This document shows, in pieces, positions 7,069 through 23,282 of a DNA stretch of 52,699 nt. The notes beneath the pieces were generated by a model, which was not told the DNA's origin, did no database searches, and worked only from the letters and a program-made list of their open reading frames with translations. The DNA is from an uncultured Oscillospiraceae bacterium. GTDB lineage: Bacteria; Bacillota; Clostridia; Oscillospirales; Oscillospiraceae. A program made the position numbers and the translations under genes. The stretch lies in the NCBI GenBank assembly GCA_947581795.1, contig CANPVS010000016.1:1-52699 (forward strand), given 5' to 3'. Each line of letters opens with the position of its first letter. Position 1 is the first letter of the stretch.

Positions 7069-7236
7069 TCAGTCTCTGCCCGTCATGCCGCTGTGTTCCT
7101 CCTGCCAGCGTGCAAATTCCCTTTGCCCCTGTTCGCTGTCGTAATACTTCCGTATCTCCGGTACAAGGAACCGGGCGAAGGATTCTATCACGGACTGGGG
7201 AAGTTCAATATCATATTTTTCTCTGTCAGCGTTCAA
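7069..7236 (-). CDS. Small conserved-type protein downstream of the relaxase
   Basis: A 55-residue open frame, too short for most gene callers, that reads LNADREKYDIELPQSVIE and then a charged helix ending EFARWQEEHSGMTGRD. The likely start is a TTG that overlaps the relaxase end by 11 bases; an in-frame ATA 12 bases earlier lies closer to GGGGGAATC. The terminator follows directly, which supports its being the last gene of the mob operon. The amphipathic acidic sequence suggests a small regulator or relaxase partner, but no function is recognised. Confidence 0.55.
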   Translation of the reverse strand: MNADREKYDIELPQSVIESFARFLVPEIRKYYDSEQGQREFARWQEEHSGMTGRD

Positions 7237-8191
7237 ATTTTCCCTTATGGCGATTCCCCCTTTGTTGTTGTTTCAAAGTCTCGCGCAGTTCCGGGGGTAT
7301 GCTTTGCACAAACCGCCGGAGGCGCTCATTTTCCTTTTTCAGTTGCAAAACCTCAAACCGTCTGTCGCTCTCACCGTTCAAAGCGTCCCTTGCTTGTGCC
7401 CTTAACCCCGTGTTCTCCTGGGTCAGATAGTCGATGGTAGCTTGATATTTCTTCATCTGCCCCAAATGACTTTCCAGCCGGGAGAAGTACGGCCCTACCA
7501 TCTGCAAGATCTCGTCCCGCTTCTTCCCGGCGTTCATCCGCCCGATCTCGGACACGGCCTGTTCAATGGCCCTCTGCTGTCTGGTAAGGTCTACGGACTG
7601 TTTAAAAAGCCAGGTGGGGATATGCCTCCGCTTGGTGACAAGGGCGCTCTCACCCCGTTGGAGGACAGGAAACGCCTTGCTCATGTGGGCGTGAAATTCG
7701 TCCTGCCATTGGGAAAGCTGCGCCCGGTTGCCTAAAATCTCCTTGGCGGACAGCCGCCCGTCCTTGGTGATCGGCGTAAAGCATAAATGCAGATGAGGCG
7801 TTTTCTCGTCCATGTGTACCACGGCGGAGAAGATATTGCCCCGCCCGATCTTTTTCTCCATAAAGGCTACGGCCTCGGTGAAATAGGCTTGAATATCGCT
7901 CCTGCTCCTGCCCGCAAAAAACTCCGGGCTGGCGGTGATGAGTGTGTCCACGAACATGGTGCTGTCTTTCCGGGTCTTGCACCCCGCTGCCTTAATACGG
8001 GCGTCGATCTCCCGCCTGTATTTCTGGGTGGGCTGGATAATGTGAAAATTGTACTTGCTCCGGGTAAGGTCAATGTCGGGATTGCTGGCGTACTGCTCCT
8101 TTGTCCGCTCATGGTGCGCCTCTAACGCCCCGGCAGGCCCCGCCTTTTGCTTGGTAAAACGCAATATCGCGTGCTGTGCTTTTTCTGCCAT
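7226..8191 (-). CDS. MobV-family relaxase (plasmid mobilization protein)
   Basis: Nicks the element's transfer origin and leads the single strand into a conjugation channel. The 321-residue protein has the Mob/Pre N-terminal domain: NFHIIQPTQKY, a region ending TLITASPEFF, and the metal-binding HMDEKTPHLHL near residue 127. Motif I of the family is in the HxERxK-like HHERTKEQYAS. The C-terminus is a coiled coil (about residues 235-300). The ATG has AAGGAGGCTGG upstream. It overlaps the small downstream gene, and the small HTH-like gene ends 10 bases before it, so all three form an operon. Mobilization by a helper element is inferred. Confidence 0.9.
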   Translation of the reverse strand: MAEKAQHAILRFTKQKAGPAGALEAHHERTKEQYASNPDIDLTRSKYNFHIIQPTQKYRREIDARIKAAGCKTRKDSTMFVDTLITASPEFFAGRSRSDIQAYFTEAVAFMEKKIGRGNIFSAVVHMDEKTPHLHLCFTPITKDGRLSAKEILGNRAQLSQWQDEFHAHMSKAFPVLQRGESALVTKRRHIPTWLFKQSVDLTRQQRAIEQAVSEIGRMNAGKKRDEILQMVGPYFSRLESHLGQMKKYQATIDYLTQENTGLRAQARDALNGESDRRFEVLQLKKENERLRRFVQSIPPELRETLKQQQRGNRHKGKFER

Positions 8192-11328: not shown

Positions 11329-11688
11329 TTGAGTAATGATATAGGCGCAAGATTGAGGACGCTCCGGGAGGGTATTGGACTATCGCAAGCGAAGTTCGGA
11401 AAAATTGCGGGTATTCCACAGACCACTATGCACCGATACGAAACAGGCTACTCCGCGACGCCCGTTGAAGTGTTGATTTGGTATGCGGATTATTTTGATG
11501 TATCAATGGATTATCTTTGTTGCCGCACTGATAAACCACAGGGAAAGCTATACGAATATAAGCCGAAAATCCTGGAAGAAGATAAGGATATGAGGCAGTT
11601 TGTTGAGATGTGTTTTGACCCGTCCTCGCCCATGAATGACAAGCTGAAAAAGACGATTATTGAAATGCTGGAGGGGGTGAAGAAATGA
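11329..11688 (+). CDS. XRE-family transcriptional regulator
   Basis: A 119-residue protein with an N-terminal Cro/CI helix-turn-helix (about residues 6-62): LRTLREGIGLSQAKFGKIAG, IPQTTMHRYETG, then YFDVSMDYLCCRTD. The C-terminal half is charged and may mediate dimer contacts. Translation starts at TTG 11329; the nearby ATG at 11325 is out of frame and stops after three codons. AGGAGG lies 8 bases upstream. Its stop overlaps the recombinase start by 4 bases, so it is made with the recombinase and probably represses the shared promoter, controlling excision. Confidence 0.85.
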   Translation: MSNDIGARLRTLREGIGLSQAKFGKIAGIPQTTMHRYETGYSATPVEVLIWYADYFDVSMDYLCCRTDKPQGKLYEYKPKILEEDKDMRQFVEMCFDPSSPMNDKLKKTIIEMLEGVKK

Positions 11689-13253
11689 ATGTAGTGATTT
11701 ATGCCAGGTATTCCAGCCATAGCCAGACCGAGCAATCAATAGAGGGCCAGCTTCAAACGTGCTATGAGTTTGCCAAGAATAACGGGCATATCGTGATAGG
11801 GGAATATATCGACCGGGCGCAGAGCGGCACGACGGACAGCCGGGCCGATTTCCAGCGCATGATAGCTGATAGCGACAAGCATACTTTTGAGGGCGTTCTT
11901 GTGTACCAGCTTGACCGCTTTGCCCGGAACAGATACGACAGCGCCATCAATAAGGCGAAGCTGAAAAAGAACGGTGTCCGGGTCATATCCGCAAGGGAGA
12001 ATATCAGCGACGACGCCAGCGGTATTTTGGTGGAGGGTGTATTGGAGAGTATGGCGGAATACTATTCGGCGGAGCTTTCACAGAAGATACGCCGGGGACT
12101 GGCAATCAACGCTGAGAAGTGTTTGAGCAACGGGAGCAATCCCGGCCTCGGCTATTGGGTGGACAGTGAGCGCCGTTTCCATGTTGACCCGGAGGGGGCC
12201 GCCGTTGTCCGGGAGATATTTGAGATGTACGCCAGCGGAAAGACCGTCGCGGAGATTACAAAGTATCTCAACGGGAAACAGATAAAGACCTCCCACGGAA
12301 AGGAGTTCAACAAGAACAGCTTACACCGCCTTTTGCGGAATAAACGCTATATCGGGTATTACATATACAGGGACACGGAAACGCCGGGAGGTATGCCCCG
12401 CATTATAGAGGACGAACTTTTTGAACGGGTGCAGCATATCCTTGACCGCAACAAGAAAGCCCCGGCCCGCGCCAGAGGCCGGGAGGAATATCTGCTGACA
12501 ACAAAGCTGTTTTGCGGCTACTGCCGGGAGATGATGACGGGCTACGGCGGCACCGGGAAATCCGGGACGGCATACCGCTATTATGCCTGCAAAAACGCCA
12601 AGATGAAGCGGTGTCAAAAGAAAGTTGTCAACAAGCAGAAGATTGAGGACAGGGTCGTTTTAGAGTGCCGCAAGCTGTTGACCGACAGCAATATAGAAAA
12701 GATAGCCCGCTCCGTTGCCGCCGCTTGCGAGGCAGATTACGATACCTCCGCCATCAAGCGTATCAAGGCGGCGATACAGGAGGCGGACACGGCTATTGAA
12801 AACCTCTGGAAAGCCTTGGAGCGCGGGCAGGCGGTCGATATGATCACCGAGCGCATAGAGAAGCGCCAAAAGGAGAAAGAGGACTTGCAGGCCCAGCTTG
12901 CGGTGGAGATGGGAAAACAGGTCACGTTTACCGCCCCGCAGATCAAGGCTTTTCTCTACTCGCTGAAGCGCGGGAACATCAACGACGAGAACAACCGCCG
13001 AGGGCTTGTCAATATCTTCCTCCGGGCTATTTATCTCTACGACGACAGAATGACGCTGATACTCAACGGCGGGGACAGGCCCATCACGATTGATGATATT
13101 CTGCTGGACGAGATAGAGGGACATTTTGAGGCCGCGATTTCAAGCGGCGCGGGGTGTTCGCCGTTGGTTGCGCCCGCTCCACCAATCGCCCGAGGACCAA
13201 AGGTCCTCGGGCAATTACTTTTTTGTGCTCTGGCGGAACTGGACAGAGAATGA
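11685..13253 (+). CDS. Large serine recombinase (integrase of the ssrA element)
   Basis: Integrates and excises the element by a serine-mechanism double-strand exchange. The N-terminal catalytic domain has YARYSSHSQ with Ser10 as nucleophile, YIDRAQSGTTDSRADFQRM and QLDRFARNRYD. The recombinase domain follows (about 160-270), then the zinc ribbon LFCGYCREMM ... YYACKNAKMKRC and a coiled coil (about 360-410). The 522-residue reading frame crosses the right attachment site at 13176-13185: its last 23 codons are host sequence including the tmRNA terminator. In the excised circle the frame would end after 20 different residues at the TGA in 7005-7007. Confidence 0.93.
   Translation: MNVVIYARYSSHSQTEQSIEGQLQTCYEFAKNNGHIVIGEYIDRAQSGTTDSRADFQRMIADSDKHTFEGVLVYQLDRFARNRYDSAINKAKLKKNGVRVISARENISDDASGILVEGVLESMAEYYSAELSQKIRRGLAINAEKCLSNGSNPGLGYWVDSERRFHVDPEGAAVVREIFEMYASGKTVAEITKYLNGKQIKTSHGKEFNKNSLHRLLRNKRYIGYYIYRDTETPGGMPRIIEDELFERVQHILDRNKKAPARARGREEYLLTTKLFCGYCREMMTGYGGTGKSGTAYRYYACKNAKMKRCQKKVVNKQKIEDRVVLECRKLLTDSNIEKIARSVAAACEADYDTSAIKRIKAAIQEADTAIENLWKALERGQAVDMITERIEKRQKEKEDLQAQLAVEMGKQVTFTAPQIKAFLYSLKRGNINDENNRRGLVNIFLRAIYLYDDRMTLILNGGDRPITIDDILLDEIEGHFEAAISSGAGCSPLVAPAPPIARGPKVLGQLLFCALAELDRE
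13176..13185 (+). repeat. Right attachment repeat (attR core)
   Basis: GCTCCACCAA, identical to the ssrA 3' end at 6936-6945. It lies inside the recombinase reading frame and is followed at once by the original tmRNA terminator. Confidence 0.8.
13188..13224 (+). terminator. Displaced tmRNA terminator
   Basis: A perfect 11-bp stem (13188-13198 with 13202-13212, AAA loop) followed by AATTAC and six T residues. Before insertion it stood 3 bases after the tmRNA CCA end. It now lies within the last codons of the recombinase. Confidence 0.85.
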
Positions 13254-13318: not shown

Positions 13319-14626
13319 TTACTTGACCGTCACCATGTCGGCGTAGCCCGTCTGGGCCAGGATGTCCCGGACCGTGTCGTTGACCCCGGACAGGGCCACA
13401 TGGCCGGGCTGCACCGCCTTGATCATCATCAGCAGCACACGCAGGCCCGCCGAGGAGATATAAGCAAGCGCCGACATGTCCACATGCACGTCGGTAAGGT
13501 CCATGGCCCCCGCGGCCTTCTCATAGGCGGCCAGGAACTCCGGCGCGGTGAGGGAGTCCACCCGGCCCCGCAGGGCCACGTCCATGACCCCGCCCCGGGC
13601 CTTGATGGACACGCCGAATGTGTCGCCGCCCGCGTCGGCCAGAGGCACCGCGTCCCCGTCCGTGGTGATGGTCCAGAGGCTGATGTGCTCCATGGCCTGC
13701 CGGGCCAGCTCCGTCCGTTCGCCGTCCAGGCTCCCCAGCTTCGGCATCCGCTGCGCTACGGGCGTGAGCTCCGCCTTCAGGCCGTGGGCGCGGAGAGTAT
13801 CCATCGCCGCGGCAAGCTGCTCCGGCGCTCCCTTTACGAGCATGACGTTTCCGAATTTCACGTCCGCCTCGCCGCTGAAGGTCTTTTTGGAGGCGTTCAG
13901 GGTGGACTGGGCCTTGTCTCCCGCCATGGCTTTGAGGACCGCGCCCATGTCGGCGCTCCCGTCCAGGGCGTCCACCGTCGCCTTCGCTTTGGCGAGGTCG
14001 TTCATAACCACGATGGTCATGGACATGTACACGCGGCTGACCTCCGGGTCCTGGGTGATCCATACGCCGCCGAACTCCTCCAGGATGCGCCGGATGTTGT
14101 CCAGCAGGGCGGCCAGCTCCGGATCGGTGAAGTACATCAGAAGGCCCTCGGTGGTGATGCACAGCGGCCCCTGAGCCCCCTCCAGCGCCGCCCGGAGGGA
14201 GGCGTAGTTGGTGGCGTCCACGCCGTGGTAGGCCACGTCCCGCTTCTGGCCCCGCTCGGCCAATATCTTATCCACCAGCGGGCCCATCTCCTCCGCCACC
14301 GCGGGCAGATCGCAGGCTATGTAATGTTTATCCGCGATGAAGTCCTCCAGGGCCCGGGGGGTGTAGCCGCAGGGCAGGTCCACGACGGTCTTTGCGCCGG
14401 TGGCCTGGATGAAGGCGTTCATGGACCGGTAGCGCAGCTCCAGCGTGGCGACGTTGGACTGGCCCATGGCCTTTTTCTGATCGTCGTTGTAGGTCATGCC
14501 GGCCAGGTCCAGGCCCAGCTTCTCCGCCATCATGGCGGCGTCGGCGTGGCCCGCCTGGGCCAGCTGCAACAGCGTGGCCTTGGCCGTGTTGAACACGGGA
14601 TTGGTCCGCTCTCTCAGTTCATCCAT
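13319..14626 (-). CDS. Methyltransferase-like/STAS fusion protein 1
   Basis: A 435-residue soluble protein with two domains. Residues about 55-290 resemble SAM-dependent methyltransferases of the leucine carboxyl methyltransferase/PPM type: TVVDLPCGYTPRALEDF is the motif I region, with YIACDLPAV and CITTEGLLMYF after it. Residues about 340-435 are a STAS domain (anti-sigma antagonist fold): VALRGRVDSLTAPEFL and ALAYISSAGLRVLLMMIK, where the SSAG serine is the likely phosphosite. The ATG chosen has AAGGAAG 8 bases upstream; a GTG 21 bases earlier is possible. Last gene of the phosphatase operon; the next copy upstream is a paralogue. Catalytic activity is not established. Confidence 0.7.
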   Translation of the reverse strand: MDELRERTNPVFNTAKATLLQLAQAGHADAAMMAEKLGLDLAGMTYNDDQKKAMGQSNVATLELRYRSMNAFIQATGAKTVVDLPCGYTPRALEDFIADKHYIACDLPAVAEEMGPLVDKILAERGQKRDVAYHGVDATNYASLRAALEGAQGPLCITTEGLLMYFTDPELAALLDNIRRILEEFGGVWITQDPEVSRVYMSMTIVVMNDLAKAKATVDALDGSADMGAVLKAMAGDKAQSTLNASKKTFSGEADVKFGNVMLVKGAPEQLAAAMDTLRAHGLKAELTPVAQRMPKLGSLDGERTELARQAMEHISLWTITTDGDAVPLADAGGDTFGVSIKARGGVMDVALRGRVDSLTAPEFLAAYEKAAGAMDLTDVHVDMSALAYISSAGLRVLLMMIKAVQPGHVALSGVNDTVRDILAQTGYADMVTVK

Positions 14627-14650
14627 TTTAATGTCTTCCTTTTTCACGGT

Positions 14651-14937: not shown

Positions 14938-16176
14938 TTATTTCAGCGTCAGGATATCGCTGTATCCCGTTTGCTCGAAGATGGACCGGATGAGATCGCT
15001 GGCGCCGGTGACGGTCACATGGCCCGCGCCCAGGCGCTTCGCCATGATGAGCAGTACGCGAAGGCCCGCCGAGGATATGTACTCCAGGTGAGACATGTCC
15101 ACCTTGGCGTCCCTGAGGGCATGGGCGTCCGCGGCCTTCTCAAAGGCGGCCAGGAATTCCGGCGCGGTGAGGGAGTCCACCCGGCCCCGCAGGGTGAAGA
15201 CCACTTCCGGACCATCCACGTCCGTGCGCAGGGCATAGGCGCCGCTCTTTTCCGGGGCGGGCTCGCTCCAGGCCGGGTCTGGGGTGATCTCCCATACGGT
15301 CAGGTCCGCGTACAGCTTCTTCATATTCTCCCGCTGCTGGCCGCCCAGCTGGGCGAACACCTTCAGCTCGGGCATATGCTCGCCCATGGGAAGCAGTCTC
15401 GCCTTCAGGCCGTTTTCAGCCAGAAGGGCCGCGGCCTTCTCAAATCCGCCTGCCTCCCCGAGGCGCATCACAAGATCGTTGTTCCCCACCGTCACGTCCG
15501 ACTGGGCGGACAGGGTGTTGAAGGCGCTCATCATATTTCTGATGGCCTCCTCGCCCATCACGGCTCGCAGCGTACCTATAGTGCGCTTGCCTGCCTCCGG
15601 GTCCGGGGTGAGCCAGCGGCCGCCGAACTCTCTCAGCACCCGCCGCACGTTGGCGCACAGCTGCCGCACCTCCGGCTGGGTCAGGTAGGCCAGCGTCCCC
15701 TCGCTGGTGAGGCATACCGGCCCCTCCACCCCGTCCAGGGCGGAGCGCAGGGAGGCGTAGCTTGTAAAGTCCGCCGCCCGGTATTCAGCCGGCGCGGGCC
15801 GGTTTTTACCGGCCAGCAGCTTCGTGACCAGCGGGGCCATCTCGTCGATGACGATGGGCAGGTCGCAGCCGATGAAGCGCTTGTTTTCAAGGCCCTTCCA
15901 CAGGGCACGGGGCGTATAGCCGCAGCCCAGGTCCACCACGGTCTTTTCCGGTCCGGCGGCCAAAAACTGGTCCATGATCTCGTGGAAGGCGTCTACCTGC
16001 GCCATCATGCCCATGCTCAGGGCGCTTTTTTGCCCCTCCCTGAACACCTCGTCCGGTTCGATGTGCAGCTCTTTGGCCATCATGGCCGCGTCCTGGTCCC
16101 CGGCCTTCATGAGATACACCAAGGTGGACTTGGCCGCGTTAAACGCGGGGTTGGTCCTCGCTCTCAGTTCATCTAT
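14938..16176 (-). CDS. Methyltransferase-like/STAS fusion protein 2 (non-ATG start)
   Basis: Paralogue of the protein at 13319-14626 with the same order: methyltransferase-like domain (TVVDLGCGYTPRALWKG, FIGCDLPIVIDEMAPLV) then STAS domain (TLRGRVDSLTAPEFLAAF, HLEYISSAGLRVLLIMAK). Aligning both copies shows that the first copy's start region MDELRERTNP corresponds here to IDELRARTNP, read from an ATA codon at 16176. GGAGG lies 7 bases before that ATA, and no ATG, GTG or TTG is near. The next usable start, TTG 16122, would remove 18 conserved residues. An ATA (or ATC 6 bases earlier) start is therefore likely. It follows the phosphatase gene by 27 bases. Confidence 0.68.
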   Translation of the reverse strand: MDELRARTNPAFNAAKSTLVYLMKAGDQDAAMMAKELHIEPDEVFREGQKSALSMGMMAQVDAFHEIMDQFLAAGPEKTVVDLGCGYTPRALWKGLENKRFIGCDLPIVIDEMAPLVTKLLAGKNRPAPAEYRAADFTSYASLRSALDGVEGPVCLTSEGTLAYLTQPEVRQLCANVRRVLREFGGRWLTPDPEAGKRTIGTLRAVMGEEAIRNMMSAFNTLSAQSDVTVGNNDLVMRLGEAGGFEKAAALLAENGLKARLLPMGEHMPELKVFAQLGGQQRENMKKLYADLTVWEITPDPAWSEPAPEKSGAYALRTDVDGPEVVFTLRGRVDSLTAPEFLAAFEKAADAHALRDAKVDMSHLEYISSAGLRVLLIMAKRLGAGHVTVTGASDLIRSIFEQTGYSDILTLK

Positions 16177-16203: not shown

Positions 16204-18345
16204 TTACGGTTTTTCCATCGGTTCTTTATACTCCAGGCAGAGCATGGTGATGTCGTCAAATTGGGGCGCGCTGCCCACGAAGGCGTCGATGTCCGCCTTC
16301 ACCGCCGGGAGAAGCACGTCCGGCGCGGCGTCCGCGTTCTTATTCAGCACCGCCTCCAGCCGCTCCATGCCGTACAGCTCGTTATTCCCGTTGGTGGCCT
16401 CCGTCACGCCGTCGGTGTACTGGAACAGCTTGTCGCCGGGCTCCATCTGCAGAGTGCCCATGCGGTACCGGGTCCCCTCCATGCCCGCCAGGACGAACCC
16501 GGCCCGTATCTTCTCCGGCGTATACTTCCCCTTCCGGCGGATGAAGGGCATCTCATGGCCGGCGTTCACGAAGTTGAACTGGCCGGTCTCCAGGTCCAGC
16601 ACACCCTCGAAGGCCGTGATGAACAGCTCCTCGCCGTTGCCCTCGCAGAGGAGGCGGTTGACCTCCATGAACACCTCGCCTAGGTCCCGGCCCGGGGTGG
16701 TGTGGTCCTTGATGAGGGTCTTGCCGATGACCATGAACAGGGCCGCGGGCACGCCCTTGCCGGACACGTCCGCCACCACCACGGCCAGGTGGCTGTCGTC
16801 CACCATGAAGAAGTCGTAGAAGTCGCCGCCCACCTCTTTGGCCGGGTTCATGGTGGCATAAATATCGAACTCCTTCCTGTCCGGGAAGGGGGGGAAGATG
16901 CAGGGCAGCATGGAGGCCTGGATGTGGGTGGCGATGTCCAGTTCCGCGCCGATGCGCTCCTTCTCCGCCGTCATGGCGGTCAGGTCGTGGATGTATTTGT
17001 CCAAAGACCCGGCCATGCCGTTGAAGGCCTCCGCCAGGTCGCCGATCTCGTCGTTTTGCCGCACGGCGGCCTGGTGGGTCAGGTCCCCGGCGCTGATGTG
17101 CTCCACATCCTCCCGCAGCTCCAGCAGGGGACCGGTGAGCCGCCGGGAGAAGGCGCCGCTCATGCCGACCACCGCCCCGATGATAACGATGAACACCGCG
17201 AGGGATATGAGCCCCGTCCGCTGGATACTGCTGTCCATGGTCTCGGCGGTGGCGCCGATGCGGGCGGTGATATCCGTGCGGATGCTCTCCGCCGGGGCCG
17301 TCACCATGTCTGCCGGCATGTGGATGGCCAGCGTCCAGCTGGCCGCGTCGATGGGGGCGTAGGCGTAATAGAGCCCGCCGGAGGTGGGCGCGACGCCCGC
17401 CTCGCCGCTCATGATGCTCTTAGCGGCCTCATAGGCGGGGCATTCCGGGTCCCGGACGTTCTCGAAGGTACCGTCGTACTCCATCTGGGGAGAGACGATG
17501 ATATATCCGGCCCCGTCCACCAAAAAGCCGTAGGAGCCCTCGCCGAAATCGATGTCCAGCACTGAGCGGGTCAGGTCCTCCACCATCATGTCCATGCACA
17601 CCACGCCGGCGAAGAGGCCATCCGCGTCATAGACGGGCGCGGCACAGGTGAGCATGAGCCCCCGGCCGAAGGTGTCCATATAGGGCACGGTGAAGATCAC
17701 GTCCCCGGCGTCCCGCGCCAACTGGTACCACACGGACTGCTCATAGCCGAAATAGTCCGGCGTCAGGTCGGAACGCTCGTCGTAATTGAGCATGAACCCG
17801 CTCTCAGTGCAGAGATAGATGGAGGCGATGTTCTCCGCGTCGCCGGTCATCACCGGCTGCCACAGGTGGACCAGGTTGGCCAGCAGGCCGATCTCCTCCT
17901 GGACGGCTGCCCGGTCCGTATCCTCGTCCCGCCATACCAGCTGCATGGTGTATGTATACTGGCTGGCCGCGTCCGGGGGCAGGACCTCCTTGGGCACGTA
18001 GGCCTCCGGCTCCTCGTAGAGCCGGTGGGCATAGAAGGCGAAATCCTTCACGTAAGACGCGTAGCGCTCCAGCTTCTCGTCCACCACGGCGGCCTCGCTC
18101 CGTACGCCCTTGTAGAGGTTCTGCTCCATCTGGTCCAGCAGGGCCTCGCCGCCGGCGGCCGCCGCGCTCTCGCCCAGGTCCCGGCTGTCCCGCTGGACCG
18201 TGTCCCGCAGGGCGAACAGGCTCCCGGCCCACAGCACGCCCGTGACCACCAGAGCCGCCACACACAGCAAGAGCACCATCCGCTGCACCTGGCGGCGGAT
18301 GGGCCTGCGCTTCCTGTTCTGTTTTTGCATATCGCTGTTCGTCAT
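16204..18345 (-). CDS. Membrane PP2C phosphatase with Cache and HAMP domains (RsbU/SpoIIE type)
   Basis: A 713-residue sensor phosphatase. An N-terminal membrane helix (MVLLLCVAALVVTGVLWAGS) is followed by an extracytoplasmic double-Cache region (about 50-375), a second helix (ISLAVFIVIIGAVVGMSG), a HAMP linker, and a SpoIIE/PP2C domain from about 475. Metal motifs are EVGGDFYDFF, VADVSGKGVPAALFM and FDDITMLCLEY. RsbU-like enzymes dephosphorylate STAS proteins in answer to a signal, and two STAS proteins follow in the same operon, so they are the likely substrates. No RsbW-type kinase is in the window. The ATG has AAAGGTGAC upstream. Confidence 0.88.
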   Translation of the reverse strand: MTNSDMQKQNRKRRPIRRQVQRMVLLLCVAALVVTGVLWAGSLFALRDTVQRDSRDLGESAAAAGGEALLDQMEQNLYKGVRSEAAVVDEKLERYASYVKDFAFYAHRLYEEPEAYVPKEVLPPDAASQYTYTMQLVWRDEDTDRAAVQEEIGLLANLVHLWQPVMTGDAENIASIYLCTESGFMLNYDERSDLTPDYFGYEQSVWYQLARDAGDVIFTVPYMDTFGRGLMLTCAAPVYDADGLFAGVVCMDMMVEDLTRSVLDIDFGEGSYGFLVDGAGYIIVSPQMEYDGTFENVRDPECPAYEAAKSIMSGEAGVAPTSGGLYYAYAPIDAASWTLAIHMPADMVTAPAESIRTDITARIGATAETMDSSIQRTGLISLAVFIVIIGAVVGMSGAFSRRLTGPLLELREDVEHISAGDLTHQAAVRQNDEIGDLAEAFNGMAGSLDKYIHDLTAMTAEKERIGAELDIATHIQASMLPCIFPPFPDRKEFDIYATMNPAKEVGGDFYDFFMVDDSHLAVVVADVSGKGVPAALFMVIGKTLIKDHTTPGRDLGEVFMEVNRLLCEGNGEELFITAFEGVLDLETGQFNFVNAGHEMPFIRRKGKYTPEKIRAGFVLAGMEGTRYRMGTLQMEPGDKLFQYTDGVTEATNGNNELYGMERLEAVLNKNADAAPDVLLPAVKADIDAFVGSAPQFDDITMLCLEYKEPMEKP

Positions 18346-18466
18346 TGAGTCACCTTTGATTTATTGAGAAATGTGTGATAAAATAACGGCTGTGACCCCG
18401 GCTCGTGCCGGAACCACACGACATGATACCACAATTTTATTCCAGGGAAAAAGGGGGGAGCGGGCC

Positions 18467-19186
18467 ATGTATGAGGTCATCATCTGCGACGACGACAACG
18501 CCTTCGCGTCGGAGCTTTCGTCTACCCTGTCCCGGTCCTTCGGGAAACGGGACGCGGCCTGCCATGTCACCTATTATCCCGAGCCTGCCCAGATGCTGTC
18601 CGCGCTGGAGCGGGGGGATCGGTGCGATCTGCTGTTCCAGGACATCCTCTTCGGGGAGGAGAAGGGCATCCGCTTCGCAAAGCTTTTGCGGGAGCGGGAC
18701 TGGGACATGGATCTGGTGCTCATGTCCAGCAGCGAGCGATACGCCGTGGCGGGCTATGACGTCCGGCCGCTCCACTATCTGCTGAAGCCCCTGCGCCAGC
18801 CCCAGCTGGAGGACGTGCTGGACCTGTTTCTGGAGCGGCACGCGCCCCACATACTGTCCATCTCCACCCCCCAGGGGATGGTGCGCCTTCCCGTGGCGGA
18901 CGTCCTCTATTTCGAGATATACAGCCACGTGGTGAGGCTCCGCCGCCGGGACGGCAGCGAGAGCTCCTGGCGGGGCACGCTCCAGGACCTGGAACCGCAG
19001 CTGCCCATCGGGCAGTTTGTCCGGGTGCACCGCAGCTATCTTGTGAATCTGGAGCACATTGCCGTGCTGGGCAGGGACGGACTGCGCCTGACCTCCGGGG
19101 ACATGGTGCCCATGGGCCGGGCCGACTACGCCGACGTCCAAATGGGACTGGCCGCCTTCGACAGGCGGCGGCATCCCTTTGTCTGA
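18467..19186 (+). CDS. LytTR-family response regulator
   Basis: A 239-residue AgrA/LytR-type regulator. The receiver domain holds the acidic pocket ICDDDN, phospho-acceptor Asp59 in LLFQDILFG, and Lys107 in YLLKPL. The LytTR DNA-binding domain (about 135-235) shows VLYFEIYSHVVRLRRRDG, the GTLQDLEPQL segment and VRVHRSYLVNLEHI. The ATG at 18467 has GGGGGGAGC upstream; an upstream frame extension is non-coding. It ends 3 bases from the convergent histidine kinase end, so the two genes are tail to tail, not an operon. It probably regulates the adjacent double-glycine peptide genes. Confidence 0.9.
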   Translation: MYEVIICDDDNAFASELSSTLSRSFGKRDAACHVTYYPEPAQMLSALERGDRCDLLFQDILFGEEKGIRFAKLLRERDWDMDLVLMSSSERYAVAGYDVRPLHYLLKPLRQPQLEDVLDLFLERHAPHILSISTPQGMVRLPVADVLYFEIYSHVVRLRRRDGSESSWRGTLQDLEPQLPIGQFVRVHRSYLVNLEHIAVLGRDGLRLTSGDMVPMGRADYADVQMGLAAFDRRRHPFV

Positions 19187-19189
19187 AGG

Positions 19190-21091
19190 TCAAAGACGCT
19201 CCAGACAGAAGTCGCTGGTCACAGAAAATCCATTCGGCGTCCGCTCCAGGAGCAGGGCGCTGTTGTATTTTTCCGCCACGGCGCGCATGGCCGCAAGGCC
19301 GTAGCCGTGGCCTTCCCGCTGCTGGGGCTCCTCTTCGTCCGGGCGGCTGTTGACGCACTGGACGCAGAGGAAATTCCCCCGCAGGTGCATATCCACCCAT
19401 ATGTACCGCCGCTGATCCGGGCCCATCCGGCGGCAGGCCTCCAGGGCGTTTTGGAGCATGTTGCTCAAAAACACGCTCAGGTCCTCGTCGGCGATGTTCA
19501 GTTCCTGGGGCACGTTCAGGTGGTGCTCCACCTGGATGCCCTGGGCGGCCGCCTGGTCCAGAAAGCTCCCGGCGATCATGTCCACCAGGATATTCTGGCA
19601 GTAGCGCCCGCCGGGCACATGGGCCAGGTCGTCGGCCACGGCGTCCACATACCGCCGGGCGCGCCCCACGTCCCCGTCGGCCAGGATGGCGGACAGGGCC
19701 AGCATGTGGTGGCGCATCTCGTGGTGCAGGGCGCGGGTGTCGTCCTCTGAGGCCAGCAGCCGCTCATACCCGGCCATGGTCTGGCGCTCCCGCTCCCGGA
19801 GCACATCCATGGTCCGGCGGGTCGCCAACGTCCGGCGGACGGCCTCCGAGATCACCACGAGCACGGCCATCCAGGAGATGACGGCGTTGAACATGCTCAC
19901 CCAGGACCAGCAGTTGCCGTCCAGCAGGCTCAGCCACAGCTCGTCCCGGAAATAGCCGACGGCGTCGCCGTCCCAGGCCCGGATCCGGTCCAGCATGTAG
20001 ACCGCCGTAAATCCGGCGGCGATGAGCCCATAGGTCAGCATGCGCTTTTTCTCCAGCCTCGTGCGCTCCTTCCACCGCAGGCCGTCCACGGCCAACGCCG
20101 CCGTCACCACGACGAGCACCGCCAGCGTCTCCGGCCCGACGAGCACCGCGATCCCCTCGGGCAGGCACAGTTCCCGCACGCTCTCGAAGACCGCCCAGGC
20201 CACCACAGCGGCGCACAGGGGCCACTTCCACCGGCTCTTCATCCGCAGGACCAGATAGAGGTACAGCGGCGCCATATACACCACGCTCACGAACCGCAGG
20301 TCCAGCCGCTCCGTCAGGATGCTGTAATACCCGACGGTGGAACTGTAGGCCTCCATCAAAAACAGCATCAGGAAGTAAAGGCATAAAAGCAGCGTCCGGC
20401 CGTCCCCGTTGCGGTTATAAGCGTCTACCAGGAACACCGCCGCCATCAGCACCGCCAAAAGCGCATAGACCGTCATAGCGGTGTTATTCCGCACCGTGGA
20501 CACGACGGAGGTCGCAATCAGCCCTGAGTCATCGTTTCCCAGATAGGGATACTCCGGCGTTCCCACCTCTCCCTCCGGGAAGTAGGTGGTGACGGCCAGT
20601 TCTTTGCCCAGATAGTCCGCGGGCAGGCTCATGCGCGTGGAGCGCACCGTCCAGTCCTGATGCTGCCGCCCGACGCGGGCCCACTGCTCTTCGCCGGGGT
20701 GGACGAAGCCGTCCCCGTCCCGGACAAGGTCCGGGAAGTCCGTGTAGAGCAGGAACCCGTCCAGGACCACCTCCACGCCGTTCTGATAACTCATCCACTC
20801 CAGCTCCGCCTGGGGGATATCTTCCGTCATGGTCCGGGTGATGCGCACGGCCCGGGTATCCTCCGGCAGCTGGAGATAGAACCCGTCCTCAAACACCGGC
20901 TCATAGGGGCGCACGCCGTCGTCCGTCAGCACCTCATAGCGCCAGCCGAAGCGCCGTTCCTCCGTGTCGCCCAGGGACAGGTCCGTCTTTTCCGTCACGC
21001 TGAGAAGGGAGAACACGACGAGTATCAGCGCCGCCACCGCCACCAGAATGGCCGCGCCGGGCAAATACCGCCGCTTGGAATCGTCTTTCAT
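19190..21091 (-). CDS. GHKL histidine kinase with 7TM sensor (7TMR-DISM-like)
   Basis: A 633-residue membrane kinase. An N-terminal helix leads to an extracytoplasmic domain (about 35-200), then seven hydrophobic segments (about 205-425), a coiled linker and the kinase core. The phospho-acceptor region is LHHEMRHHMLALSAIL; the ATP site has FLSNMLQNALEAC (N box) and GHGYGLAAMRAV (G box). The core is of the HPK10/AgrC kind that pairs with LytTR regulators; the only such regulator here is the convergent gene. It lies 66 bases after the last double-glycine peptide gene on the same strand with no clear terminator between, so it is likely co-transcribed with the peptides it may sense. Confidence 0.88.
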   Translation of the reverse strand: MKDDSKRRYLPGAAILVAVAALILVVFSLLSVTEKTDLSLGDTEERRFGWRYEVLTDDGVRPYEPVFEDGFYLQLPEDTRAVRITRTMTEDIPQAELEWMSYQNGVEVVLDGFLLYTDFPDLVRDGDGFVHPGEEQWARVGRQHQDWTVRSTRMSLPADYLGKELAVTTYFPEGEVGTPEYPYLGNDDSGLIATSVVSTVRNNTAMTVYALLAVLMAAVFLVDAYNRNGDGRTLLLCLYFLMLFLMEAYSSTVGYYSILTERLDLRFVSVVYMAPLYLYLVLRMKSRWKWPLCAAVVAWAVFESVRELCLPEGIAVLVGPETLAVLVVVTAALAVDGLRWKERTRLEKKRMLTYGLIAAGFTAVYMLDRIRAWDGDAVGYFRDELWLSLLDGNCWSWVSMFNAVISWMAVLVVISEAVRRTLATRRTMDVLRERERQTMAGYERLLASEDDTRALHHEMRHHMLALSAILADGDVGRARRYVDAVADDLAHVPGGRYCQNILVDMIAGSFLDQAAAQGIQVEHHLNVPQELNIADEDLSVFLSNMLQNALEACRRMGPDQRRYIWVDMHLRGNFLCVQCVNSRPDEEEPQQREGHGYGLAAMRAVAEKYNSALLLERTPNGFSVTSDFCLERL

Positions 21092-21157: not shown

Positions 21158-21388
21158 TCACGGCCGGCGCTTGCAGCGGGTATCCACCGGACCGCATGCG
21201 GACCATTCCATCAGCAGCCGGTTATATTCCTCCGTGCACATCCCGTAATGGAGCCGGAGGTGCCTTCCGGGGCAGGTGTCGCACCGGTTGGTCCAGACGA
21301 AGTCCTCTGCCAGCGCGGCGAAGCTCTGCCCGCCCGCGCCGCCGCTGACGGCCCGCAGCTCTTCCTCACGCTGGATCTGTTCGCCCAT
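21158..21388 (-). CDS. Double-glycine-leader cysteine-rich peptide, copy 5
   Basis: A 76-residue precursor-like peptide. The leader ends EELRAVSGG at residue 17; the core starts AGGQSFAALAEDFVWTNRC and has five cysteines, beginning with C-x2-C. The VWTNRC segment aligns with the two-hydrophobic-x3-Cys pattern of the other copies, but the third Cys comes later (11 residues after the second, not 6), so this is the most divergent member. AGAGGTGG lies upstream of the ATG. Last peptide gene before the histidine kinase. A secreted signal or bacteriocin-like role is inferred from the leader type only. Confidence 0.7.
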   Translation of the reverse strand: MGEQIQREEELRAVSGGAGGQSFAALAEDFVWTNRCDTCPGRHLRLHYGMCTEEYNRLLMEWSACGPVDTRCKRRP

Positions 21389-21437
21389 TTTTCCACCTCT
21401 TATCCGTTGATCTGTCTGTTCTGCCCCGCAGCTCTTT

Positions 21438-21662
21438 TTACAGGATTTCCTTGCCCTTGGGGCACGCGACTTCCACCTCGCCGCCCGCCGCGAACTTCGG
21501 TTTCAGCTCCTCGAGATACGCCCAGCATTCAACGCTGCGGTCTCCGCAGCCAACGCAGTGCTGCATGATGAGGGGAAACACCCCGGCGGAGTCCACCTTC
21601 ACGCCGCCGCTCACGCCCTCCAGCGCGTTCATGTCCAGTTCCTTGCTGTTGATGTTGTTCAT
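21438..21662 (-). CDS. Double-glycine-leader cysteine-rich peptide, copy 4
   Basis: A 74-residue peptide. The leader MNNINSKELDMNALEGVSGG ends at residue 20 in the double glycine. The core runs VKVDSAGVFPLIMQHC and has C-x2-C-x6-C-W-A-Y, then a fourth Cys in ACPKGKEIL at the end. This is the same four-cysteine plan as copies 1-3. The leader matches class II bacteriocin and Nif11-type leaders that C39 peptidases cut after GG. The ATG has AAAGGAAAAAG upstream. It lies between copies 6 and 5 in the operon. Confidence 0.75.
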   Translation of the reverse strand: MNNINSKELDMNALEGVSGGVKVDSAGVFPLIMQHCVGCGDRSVECWAYLEELKPKFAAGGEVEVACPKGKEIL

Positions 21663-21699
21663 GGTCTTTTTCCTTTCTTTTATGTTAGTTTATTTGGTC

Positions 21700-21921
21700 T
21701 CACAGGCTGCAGGCGACGAGCCTTCCCTTCCTGACATTGAAGGTGCTCATGCACTTCCTATTGGGGCAGGTCACGGACATATCCCGGGTGCTGGCGTAGA
21801 TCACCGCGCCGCAGTTGGGGCACTTGTACGTGACGGCGCCGGTGGCCGTGGGCGAGGGGTCCGCGGGCCCGACGGCCCCGCCGGTCACATTGTCCAGTTC
21901 CATATCGTCGATCTCAAACAT
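21700..21921 (-). CDS. Double-glycine-leader peptide with zinc-ribbon core, copy 6
   Basis: A 73-residue peptide, MFEIDDMELDNVTGG then AVGPADPSPTATG and a compact ribbon KCPNCG ... TCPNRKC with a C-terminal Cys. The core differs from copies 1-4 and looks like a zinc ribbon with two C-x2-C-type knuckles. The whole start region (ribosome site, ATG and first six codons) is exactly duplicated in tandem, so a second in-frame start at 21954 would add 11 residues (MFEIDDKGETT); the inner start gives a leader length like the others. The product may be a metal-binding secreted peptide, but this is unproven. Confidence 0.68.
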   Translation of the reverse strand: MFEIDDMELDNVTGGAVGPADPSPTATGAVTYKCPNCGAVIYASTRDMSVTCPNRKCMSTFNVRKGRLVACSL

Positions 21922-21969
21922 TGTCGTTTCTCCTTTATCGTCGATCTCAAACATTGTCGTTTCTCCTTT
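21904..21969 (-). repeat. Tandem 33-base duplication of ribosome site and start codon
   Basis: Two identical 33-base copies, 21904-21936 and 21937-21969, each holding AAAGGAGAAACG, ATG and the codons for FEIDD. The unit is a multiple of three, so both starts share a frame. Confidence 0.92.
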
Positions 21970-21981
21970 TCTGTTTTATCC

Positions 21982-22213
21982 CTAGCCGACCTTAATCATT
22001 CTCGTATTGCAGTGATCAATAACGGCGCAGCACGGGCACCACGGCGCGGTGGAACCTTCGATCCTCGCCGTCGGAAAGCCACGATACTCATAGCCGCAAT
22101 TGGGGCAGCGATACAGAAACGTCCCATTGGCGGCGCCGCCGGTCACTACGTCCAGGACGTCATCCTCCAGTTCAGGGGTTACCCCCCCGCGGGGTTTTCT
22201 TCTCGTCAGTCAT
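21982..22213 (-). pseudogene. Frameshifted double-glycine-leader peptide with zinc-ribbon core, copy 7
   Basis: The ATG at 22213 reads MTDEKKTPRGGNP and stops. In the next frame the sequence continues TPELEDDVLDVVTGG, then AANGTFLYRCPNCGYEYRG, a second cluster WCPCCAVIDHC and a stop at 21982. Removing one base from the run of seven C (plus strand 22182-22188) joins the two into a complete precursor of about 76 residues. The leader end VVTGG and the CPNCG core match copy 6. Either the gene is broken, the run is misread, or the tract slips as a phase-variable switch. The start overlaps no gene; GAGG is 8-9 bases upstream. Confidence 0.7.
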
Positions 22214-22226
22214 CACGATCCATACC

Positions 22227-22415
22227 TCACTTTTTCAGCTTTTCCAGCTGTTCCTCGTCCGCGTAGACGCTCACCTCGCCGCAGACGGGGCACAGCGCCG
22301 CCTTGGGGTAGACGGCCTTCCCGCCCAGGCCCTTGCGCCGTATCACGTTGCCGCCCGAGCCGGTGAATGTGAAGCCCTCTTCCATCTCCGCGCCGCAGCG
22401 CACACATTTTCTCAT
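22227..22415 (-). CDS. Small zinc-ribbon protein within the peptide operon
   Basis: A 62-residue protein with two C-x2-C knuckles: MRKCVRCGAEMEEGF at the start and ALCPVCGEVSVYA later. This is the pattern of small DUF6487-like zinc ribbons. It has no double-glycine leader, unlike the seven genes around it, so it may act inside the cell. The ATG has AAGGAGG at good distance. It lies between peptide copies 3 and 7, with 11 to 25 bases separating it from each neighbour, so it is part of the same transcript. A role as regulator or immunity protein is only a guess. Confidence 0.75.
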   Translation of the reverse strand: MRKCVRCGAEMEEGFTFTGSGGNVIRRKGLGGKAVYPKAALCPVCGEVSVYADEEQLEKLKK

Positions 22416-22440
22416 GGCGTTTTCCTCCTTGTCCGCGTTG

Positions 22441-22677
22441 TCATTTGGGGACGATCCAGGGGCAGCCCGGCTTGTCCTTGAACACATAATACATCGCCGT
22501 CGTATCGAAGGGGTCGCCGCTGGGATAGGAACACTCCGTGTTGCATCTTGAGCAGCGGCTGCAATAGGCGTCGATAAAGGGCACGCGGAAGATCTCGGCC
22601 GCCTGGAGATCATCGGCGGATATCCCGCCGGTGATCTTTTCCAGGGTCTTCTCGTCCAGCTTCATTTCATCGTTCAT
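22441..22677 (-). CDS. Double-glycine-leader cysteine-rich peptide, copy 3
   Basis: A 78-residue peptide with the leader MNDEMKLDEKTLEKITGG ending at residue 18. The core begins ISADDLQAAEIFRVPFIDAY and holds C-x2-C-x2-C-x3-C-S-Y and a fifth Cys in GCPWIVPK. Ignoring the extra internal Cys, spacing is C-x2-C-x6-C as in copies 1 and 4. FIDAYC aligns with FITHNC of copy 1 and FFHANC of copy 2. CAGGAGAATC lies upstream of the ATG. Net charge is near neutral, unlike typical cationic bacteriocins. No known RiPP class is recognised. Confidence 0.75.
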   Translation of the reverse strand: MNDEMKLDEKTLEKITGGISADDLQAAEIFRVPFIDAYCSRCSRCNTECSYPSGDPFDTTAMYYVFKDKPGCPWIVPK

Positions 22678-22703
22678 GGTATGATTCTCCTGATTTTTGA
22701 TAT

Positions 22704-22931
22704 TTAAGGGTCAAGATATTTTCCGAAACACACCGCGTCCGGCCTGCTGCCCAGCAATTCAAAGGCATGTTCAAAACTTCCATAGACACAGTCCGCGGTC
22801 AAACGGCAGCAGAGGCAGTTGGCATGGAAAAATGTAAAAAATGGATCGTCATGCTCTTCCAGACCGCCAGATACGGCCTTCACGGTCTCGTCGCTCAGCG
22901 TCTTTTCCTCGCTCACGGGGTGCTCCTCCAT
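22704..22931 (-). CDS. Double-glycine-leader cysteine-rich peptide, copy 2
   Basis: A 75-residue peptide. The leader ends SDETVKAVSGG at residue 23. The core is LEEHDDPFFTFFHAN, then C-x-C-C-x5-C-V-Y and a last Cys in VCFGKYLDP. Spacing between the first C-x2-C pair and the next Cys is five rather than six. Its ATG comes 1 base after the copy 1 stop and has no separate strong ribosome site, so the two are translationally coupled. The acidic core and paired aromatics before the first Cys are shared with copy 1. Confidence 0.75.
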   Translation of the reverse strand: MEEHPVSEEKTLSDETVKAVSGGLEEHDDPFFTFFHANCLCCRLTADCVYGSFEHAFELLGSRPDAVCFGKYLDP

Positions 22932-22932
22932 T

Positions 22933-23157
22933 TTATTTCGGCCGATGGGGGCAGGGCGTTTTTTTGTCGTGCTTCACTTCCTCATAGACCAGGCTCGGGT
23001 CGAGGGCATAGGGACAGTCGGCGTCGGCCAGCGCGCAGCCGGGACAGTTGTGCGTGATGAAGTACGCCATAAACTCAGCGTACAGCATGGCGTCGTTCAT
23101 CGCCCCGCCGGCGACGCCCTCCAGTTCCTTTTCGTTCAGGATCTCTTTGTCGTTCAT
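22933..23157 (-). CDS. Double-glycine-leader cysteine-rich peptide, copy 1
   Basis: A 74-residue peptide and the first gene of the operon. The leader MNDKEILNEKELEGVAGG ends at residue 18 and is the closest to the textbook L-x-x-V-x-GG bacteriocin leader. The core AMNDAMLYAEFMAYFITHN is followed by C-P-G-C-A-L-A-D-A-D-C-P-Y and a final PCPHRPK, giving four cysteines. GAGGGGG lies before the ATG, and a sigma-A-type promoter is 34 bases upstream. Export would need a C39-peptidase ABC transporter, none of which is in this window. Confidence 0.78.
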   Translation of the reverse strand: MNDKEILNEKELEGVAGGAMNDAMLYAEFMAYFITHNCPGCALADADCPYALDPSLVYEEVKHDKKTPCPHRPK

Positions 23158-23190: not shown

Positions 23191-23219
23191 CATACTAACG
23201 GAATTACGGGCGGCCGTCA
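23191..23219 (-). promoter_or_regulatory. Promoter of the peptide-kinase operon
   Basis: Minus strand TTGACG (23219-23214) and TAGTAT (23196-23191) with a 17-base spacer. Upstream lies an imperfect repeat of CGAGTCG/CGATTCGAG, which could be an operator. No standard LytTR direct repeat is clear. Confidence 0.55.
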
Positions 23220-23282
23220 ACCGCTCTGTCTCGAATCGACAAAAACACGACTCGAATTGCATCCCAAAGGGGCTTTTTGGCC

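Follow-up and report, generated by a model that had tools for sequence, protein, structure and literature searches.

Double-glycine leaders are known to direct the export of bacteriocins, pheromones and modified peptides. In the LahT peptidase, the leader residues V-4, L-7 and L-12 fill a hydrophobic groove (PMC6363468); NHLP/Nif11 precursors are described as accompanied by ABC exporters and by enzymes that modify peptides (PMC2887384); and pln promoters carry two 9-bp tandem repeats, separated by 12 bp, immediately before the -35 element (PMC2714321). Here we analyzed a 52,699-nucleotide contig (CANPVS010000016.1, hereafter the window) of an uncultured Oscillospiraceae bacterium. In the draft genome to which it belongs (G000, the own genome; 84% complete, 2.29 Mb in 62 contigs) it is contig C16; G, C and L numbers are our handles for genomes, contigs and loci. 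The minus strand of 21158-23157 carries a cluster of small genes with double-glycine leaders and cysteine-rich cores, and we consider it probable that the cluster belongs to a regulated, mobile arsenal of secreted four-cysteine (Cys4) mini-proteins that leave the cell by a known route; we infer their export, zinc binding and regulation.

A genome-wide set of double-glycine peptides

An earlier note on this DNA had described a one-strand family of seven double-glycine genes. All seven leader/core pairs do lie on the minus strand, but only six are intact open reading frames (ORFs), the seventh being frameshifted (Table 1). These six, each with at least four Cys, are the only double-glycine-leader ORFs of the window, none lying outside the cluster, and 60 first-order Markov resamples of the window gave a mean of 0.1 double-glycine ORFs (0.03 with at least four Cys; maximum 1). 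The Cys spacing Cx2C-x5/6-C-x-[YA], close to the C-x2-C-x5-6-C-x-Y that the note had described for most of its copies 1-5, is shared by copies 1-3 and the copy at 21438; the copy at 21158 is spaced differently. Its two zinc-ribbon-like, leader-bearing copies (21982 and 21700) both have CPNCG knuckles, and its eighth, leaderless zinc-ribbon gene is present among the peptides. The frameshift in the copy at 21982 (core frame 21982-22146) lies in a run of G near 22182-22188, with the leader in another frame; this copy is intact in the near relative G032. In the peptide at 21700-21954, a short N-terminal duplication yields two in-frame starts (MFEIDDKGETTMFEIDDMEL), and the G032 copy begins at the second. 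G032 also has an extra type B peptide (L064:9654-9857) opposite window 21955-21981, a gain or loss within the cluster, and cores like that of copy 3 were seen by eye in G011, G026 and G027.

The set proved larger than the note had envisaged, and its reading of an undescribed system gained support, with a shared operator and a regulatory module described below. In 15 stretches of the own genome (246.5 kb including the window, picked mostly through peptide profile matches), we found at least 46 non-overlapping double-glycine ORFs on 11 contigs, 38 of them with at least four Cys and six in the window (broken copy left out). The search used the pattern [LIVMFA]xx[LIVM][STAC]GG and an acidic-leader filter (at least three D/E), so that peptides outside either are uncounted. 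A profile of the five cysteine-rich copies, as proposed in the note, matched the own genome 30 times at E<=0.01. All loci together yielded 207 distinct cores, or 137 after removal of similar ones, of which 108 have at least four Cys (72 four, 30 five, 5 six and 1 eight), 20 have none and 9 have one to three (1 with two); leaders are nearly devoid of Cys (5/4430 residues).

The leaders, about 18-26 residues long, take the form ..L-x4-L-x2-V-[STA]-GG. Hydrophobic positions -4 and -7 are built into the search pattern; position -12, which the search did not select, is V/I/L/M/F in 93% of 171 leaders of cores with at least four Cys, and the other unselected positions from -5 to -15 are hydrophobic by the same definition in at most 16%. 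These figures bear on the reading that the genes encode cytoplasmic zinc-finger proteins with a leader by chance: type B cores, including the CPNCG ones, do match ordinary zinc ribbons, yet a leader common to 171 different cores, with its unselected -12 residue and a chance expectation of 0.1 per window, is not a product of chance, and we give this reading next to no credence.

Between G000 and G032, 21 peptide pairs from several clusters were 97.5% identical in their cores and 89.7% in their leaders, and the core dN/dS of 0.44 (an estimate without significance test) is, with these identities, consistent with frames under constraint. Because dS was higher in leaders (0.150) than in cores (0.028), the comparison suggests that leaders have been exchanged between paralogues. 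No partner was found for 26/47 own peptides in the three G032 stretches compared, but this does not show that partners are missing: the copy at 21438 does have one in G032 (VNGG), outside the search pattern. In two other genera of the order, a zinc-ribbon-like core stands behind a short leader (L134:1477-1743) and behind a leader that looks Nif11-type by eye (L142:1495-1773); the combination of zinc-ribbon core and leader is therefore wider than the own genus.

Core types and the role of the cysteines

The note had assigned the cores to no recognized class, and indeed no window peptide matched a Pfam or NCBIfam family over cut-off. Type A cores had no PDB sequence match below E=0.5, and the structure model of copy 1 is a two-helix Cys4 arrangement for which no structural match was found (one chain compared). 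Type B cores contain two Cys knuckles (CxxC or close variants) and resemble zinc ribbons in sequence and weakly in model; the core columns of their profile match zinc ribbons elsewhere, with Pfam matches below cut-off. CPxCG knuckles are those of metal-binding ribbons, and type B cores are probably zinc-ribbon-like and would hold zinc. No description of double-glycine zinc ribbons was found in the literature, searched mainly outside subscription papers; one listed paper, PMC9200625, contains both terms.

Disulfides are common in small secreted peptides and four Cys could form two of them, which would make these peptides disulfide-bonded rather than zinc proteins. The Cys counts fit this poorly, with five-Cys cores second commonest (30/137) and two-Cys (1) and six-Cys (5) cores rare, as does the zinc-ribbon likeness of type B cores, and we consider the disulfide reading unlikely, although it deserves to be taken seriously.

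Alternatively, the peptides might be precursors of ribosomally synthesized and post-translationally modified peptides (RiPPs), with Cys crosslinked by an enzyme such as a radical SAM protein. The NHLP/Nif11 precedent points this way, as do two Nif11-type leaders in the C26 cluster (TIGR03798, 33.2 and 33.9 bits, cut-off 32.3) and a radical-SAM/SPASM-like gene on C31 that has double-glycine peptides of its own and the same operator. The search for a modifying enzyme recommended in the note was thus answered on C31 and came up empty beside the window peptides; the 84% complete genome had no LanC-like or YcaO match, the window peptides did not match TIGR03798 at E<=1 (one C12 peptide matched below cut-off), and CPxCG knuckles, as said, belong to metal-binding ribbons. 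For the cluster as a whole we therefore hold the RiPP reading to be improbable.

Probable export route, operator and regulatory neighbors

An exporter, which the note had recommended looking for in the same genome, was found on C12, outside the window, as the only Peptidase_C39 match of the own genome. It is an NHLM pair composed of ABC1, which carries the C39 peptidase (952 bits, TIGR03796, cut-off 853.3), and ABC2 (731.4 bits, TIGR03797, cut-off 709.4), and four further double-glycine peptides adjoin it. The 171 leaders conform to the rule for C39 substrates (hydrophobic -4, -7 and -12 followed by GG). Because the leaders fit LahT-type recognition and the genome has a C39 exporter, we infer cleavage after GG and export by the C12 exporter. 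In L002 and L122, genes for STAS-APH, SpoIIE-HATPase, GH3-type ligase and STAS proteins neighbor the exporter operon, together with a MATE transporter that has a weak HATPase_c_2 match, below cut-off. L069 (G025:C8) holds two different NHLM-like exporter sets within 20 kb, whose ABC1 proteins are 87% and 51% identical to that of C12. In a genome without type A match, a Cys-free double-glycine ORF (L112:2145-2444; G007:C52) adjoins an exporter; this family of exporters thus carries cargo of other kinds too.

Copy 1 is preceded by a putative operator of two 9-bp repeats with a 12-bp spacer, 7 bp upstream of TTGAC (consensus over sites ATTCGAGTC-12-ATTCGGGAC, its repeats identical at 7/9 positions). 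It is the sole window match at <=3 mismatches (0 in 100 shuffles) and scores 74.3 bits on a matrix of 45 columns made from 22 sites, own-genome ones included. The 26-bp heart occurred 5, 6 and 8 times in own-genome loci at <=3, 4 and 5 mismatches, with 0 in five Markov resamples each, and the matrix found ten sites in these loci (one each on C16, C35, C3, C40, C1 and C31, two each on C62 and C8). Nine of the ten precede double-glycine peptide ORFs; the tenth (C31; L063:413-2673) stands before the radical-SAM/SPASM-like gene (best NCBIfam matches below cut-off), which is followed by double-glycine peptides rich in Cys. This is probably a RiPP operon that belongs to the regulon. The operator stands before 8/10 own-genome groups with 'KLDDETL'-like leaders, the exceptions being C7 and a group 86 bp from the C40 end. 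Outside the own genome, sites were found ahead of methyltransferase-STAS genes that have peptides after them (L089, L091, L093, L125) and ahead of genes whose products have signal-peptide-like starts (L067, L126, L127). An ECF-like sigma factor, recognized by eye (L058:3391-3864), lies on C26 among 'EELADEAL'-leader peptides without operator.

LytTR systems use the same promoter geometry (PMC6193735), which we took to allow spacers of 11-13 bp. Next to the peptides of the window lie genes for a LytTR regulator and a GHKL kinase, which makes this regulator the natural candidate for operator binding. The leader, the exporter type, the kinase/regulator pair and the tandem-repeat promoter are as in pln-type regulons (whose regulators we take to be of the LytTR-type family) and would also suit unmodified class II bacteriocins, that is, membrane-active killers with a double-glycine leader, and a leader-only ComC model weakly matches 17/45 type A members (best E 0.0032). 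The own-genome cores with at least four Cys are, however, near-neutral and hydrophilic (mean net charge 0.05, range -7 to 11; GRAVY -0.46; best 15-residue window 1.4), and the window peptides stay under the cut-offs of Bacteriocin_IIc, ComC and TIGR01847 (14/27.1, 15/20.4 and 12.2-12.7/15.7 bits, respectively). A look for immunity genes found no further ORF among the peptides of L052 or L088, the latter with no additional ORF of at least 45 residues besides its 13 peptides; other clusters carry small unassigned ORFs. We judge the bacteriocin reading to be distinctly unlikely.

A different role, mainly as signals, is suggested by the copy 7 type, which has 19 invariant positions in eight sequences (two pairs nearly identical) and adjoins the kinase in 6/8 loci (window, L064, L067, L069/L070, L088 and L127), the exceptions being L124, where it is not beside the kinase, and L129, which has no intact ORF; the count took kinases at least 60% identical and left out a 53% partial kinase in L116. 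If the peptides at large were pheromones for the GHKL kinase, one such kinase would face some 40 diverse cores, and the G416 peptide adjoining the kinase is of another type, so that this reading seems to us rather unlikely.

Table 1. Positions of the peptide cluster, its promoter elements and the neighboring regulatory genes in the window
Feature	Positions	Strand	Description
Copy 1	22933..23157	-	leader ..EGVAGG, type A core (Cys 38, 41, 48, 69); structure model made
Copy 2	22704..22931	-	leader ..KAVSGG, type A core
Copy 3	22441..22677	-	leader ..EKITGG, type A core (CxxCxxCxxxC)
Leaderless small zinc-ribbon ORF	22227..22415	-	among the peptides; Zn_Ribbon_1 E=6e-5, 23.1 bits, below cut-off 25
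Frameshifted type B peptide	21982..22230	-	CPNCG..CPCC; leader ..DVVTGG cut off from start by frameshift
Type B peptide	21700..21954	-	leader ..DNVTGG; CPNCG..CPNRKC; structure model made
Type A peptide	21438..21662	-	leader ..EGVSGG, core LIMQHC
Copy 7 type peptide	21158..21388	-	leader ..RAVSGG; FVWTNRC..CKRRP; divergent type A; candidate pheromone
Operator and start of -35	23217..23261	-	TGCA-ATTCGAGTC-N12-ATTCGAGAC-N7-TTGA; 26-bp heart 23232-23257; upstream of copy 1
Probable -10 (TAGTAT)	23192..23197	-	18 nt after TTGAC; read from the sequence, putative
Histidine kinase, GHKL ATPase	19190..21091	-	HATPase_c_5 E=1.6e-9; membrane segments by eye
LytTR response regulator	18371..19186	+	LytTR E=6.9e-15; Response_reg; convergent with kinase
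dCache-HAMP-SpoIIE phosphatase	16204..18345	-	domain matches
Methyltransferase (LCM)-STAS fusion 1	14938..16122	-	homologues adjoin double-glycine peptides in other loci
Methyltransferase-STAS fusion 2	13319..14647	-	LCM below cut-off

Elsewhere in the window, a mobilization-type relaxase and a serine recombinase were recognized by eye at 7226-8191 and 11685-13253, probably an integrated mobile element.

Probable mobility, proposed mechanism and known systems

In G416, a genome of another family, a single locus (adjoining stretches L124 and L125) contains eleven double-glycine peptides, kinase, regulator, STAS and SpoIIE phosphatase genes, an HlyD-like protein, ABC1, ABC2, a methyltransferase-STAS gene and another peptide. 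Identity to the own proteins was 76% for kinase and regulator, 78% for the HlyD-like protein, 86% for SpoIIE and ABC2, 90% for STAS and 89% for ABC1 over its first 507 residues, while the methyltransferase-STAS proteins reached 67% (methyltransferase-STAS 1 of the locus) and 80% (a second copy on C1). Because the module proteins are mostly 76-90% identical versus 57% for MurA (whose identity within the own genus is 85-99%, five genomes), the module has probably moved between families, and such a transfer would tie the regulatory genes of the window to the C12 exporter. Of 300 family genomes with a completeness of 80% or more, 5 had a type A profile match at E<=1e-4; four of these belong to the own genus, and the remaining match contains stops. 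Of 394 order genomes, 3 had such a match (the own one, G416 and one with a leader-only match). Among 35 genus genomes, peptide matches at this threshold occurred in 10/13 with ABC1 over cut-off versus 4/22 without (p=0.0011), a count that omits G013, G015, G020 and G021 (best E 0.004-0.009; the last three in frames of ~340 residues); no C39 match was found in the 14 searched among those 22. Fourteen named loci all come from metagenome-assembled genomes with Lapin in their name, one called Gemmiger, and the name points to a rabbit host.

In the mechanism we propose, precursor peptides encoded across the genome, of which the cluster is one group, have in common a short leader, which the NHLM-type C39-peptidase ABC exporter of C12 would recognize, cut after GG and use to export the core. 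The released cores would be hydrophilic mini-proteins of 40-60 residues folded around one metal, most likely Zn2+, through four Cys, as zinc-ribbon-like type B and, for type A, as the modeled two-helix Cys4 form that found no match. Transcription would be turned on through the tandem-repeat operator, probably by the neighboring kinase/LytTR regulator. Partner switching through SpoIIE/STAS proteins may add a second control, and the peptide at 21158 is a possible inducer. The cocktail would most likely act on neighboring bacteria, by antagonism or signaling, which is the weakest step.

Several observations weigh against this interpretation. On the export side, the HlyD-like subunit on C12 is short (158 aa; TIGR03794 42 bits versus cut-off 156), its match spanning only the first 49/421 positions, similarly in G032 and G416; G011, G016, G022 and G029 (78-93% complete) have peptide matches but no C39 domain was found in them, G022 holding an ABC2 fragment at a contig end; and the exporter is present in G007, G009 and G014, where the type A profile has no match. 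On the regulatory side, the operator precedes 0/9 groups with 'EELADEAL' ('EEL')-type leaders (C12, C26, C33), was not found, in the loci compared, upstream of the genes for kinase, regulator or exporter or of the peptide groups of G019, G023 (L065, L066) or bin43 (L088), and in places precedes other genes (L086, L092, L117, L126). A 16-bp period fits its repeats at least as well, and they are unlike the published LytTR repeats (ACCxCTTAx-like and TACGTTAAT; PMC6193735, PMC2714321). Metal binding of the cores is predicted, with disulfides as the alternative.

If this holds, the mini-proteins, which number in the dozens, are secreted, probably hold zinc and in many cases share one operator, would be cargo of a new kind. 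They would also provide small stable scaffolds and a testable example of how combinatorial secreted arsenals are built by gut bacteria. We advance more tentatively, as a reading with a sizable chance of being right, that they form a new class of extracellular effectors in which recruited intracellular-type zinc ribbons and a new Cys4 mini-fold, about 40 per genome, leave through one NHLM exporter as a regulated cocktail, the module being mobile between families of gut Clostridia. Regulation and export can be tested directly by way of the operator and the one-locus module of G416.

LysW and other zinc ribbons count among the closest known systems. EbfG1-4/PteB of Synechococcus elongatus is likewise a set of several small GG-motif proteins with a peptidase-domain transporter and a non-killing role, but it is required for biofilm formation, and its abstract mentions neither a Cys4 core nor a zinc ribbon (PMC4997328). 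The pln regulon of Lactobacillus plantarum shares the operator geometry, whereas here the repeat sequence is another, the cargo is not bacteriocin-like, SpoIIE/STAS genes are added and the groups are spread over many contigs (PMC2714321). LahT/LahA of Lachnospiraceae C6A11 shares the V-4/L-7/L-12/GG leader rule, read by a C39 peptidase tolerant of diverse cores; the LahA leaders are Nif11-type and are discussed as those of RiPP precursors, whereas no enzyme adjoins the window peptides (PMC6363468). Closest in its exporter is the NHLP/Nif11 (N11P) and NHLM system of Haft, Basu and Mitchell (2010), with exporter models matched over cut-off, paralogous GG-leader precursors and Nif11-type leaders that also occur in the own genome; from this system the present one differs in its short leaders, its lack of LanC-like or YcaO matches and its Cys4 mini-protein cores (PMC2887384).

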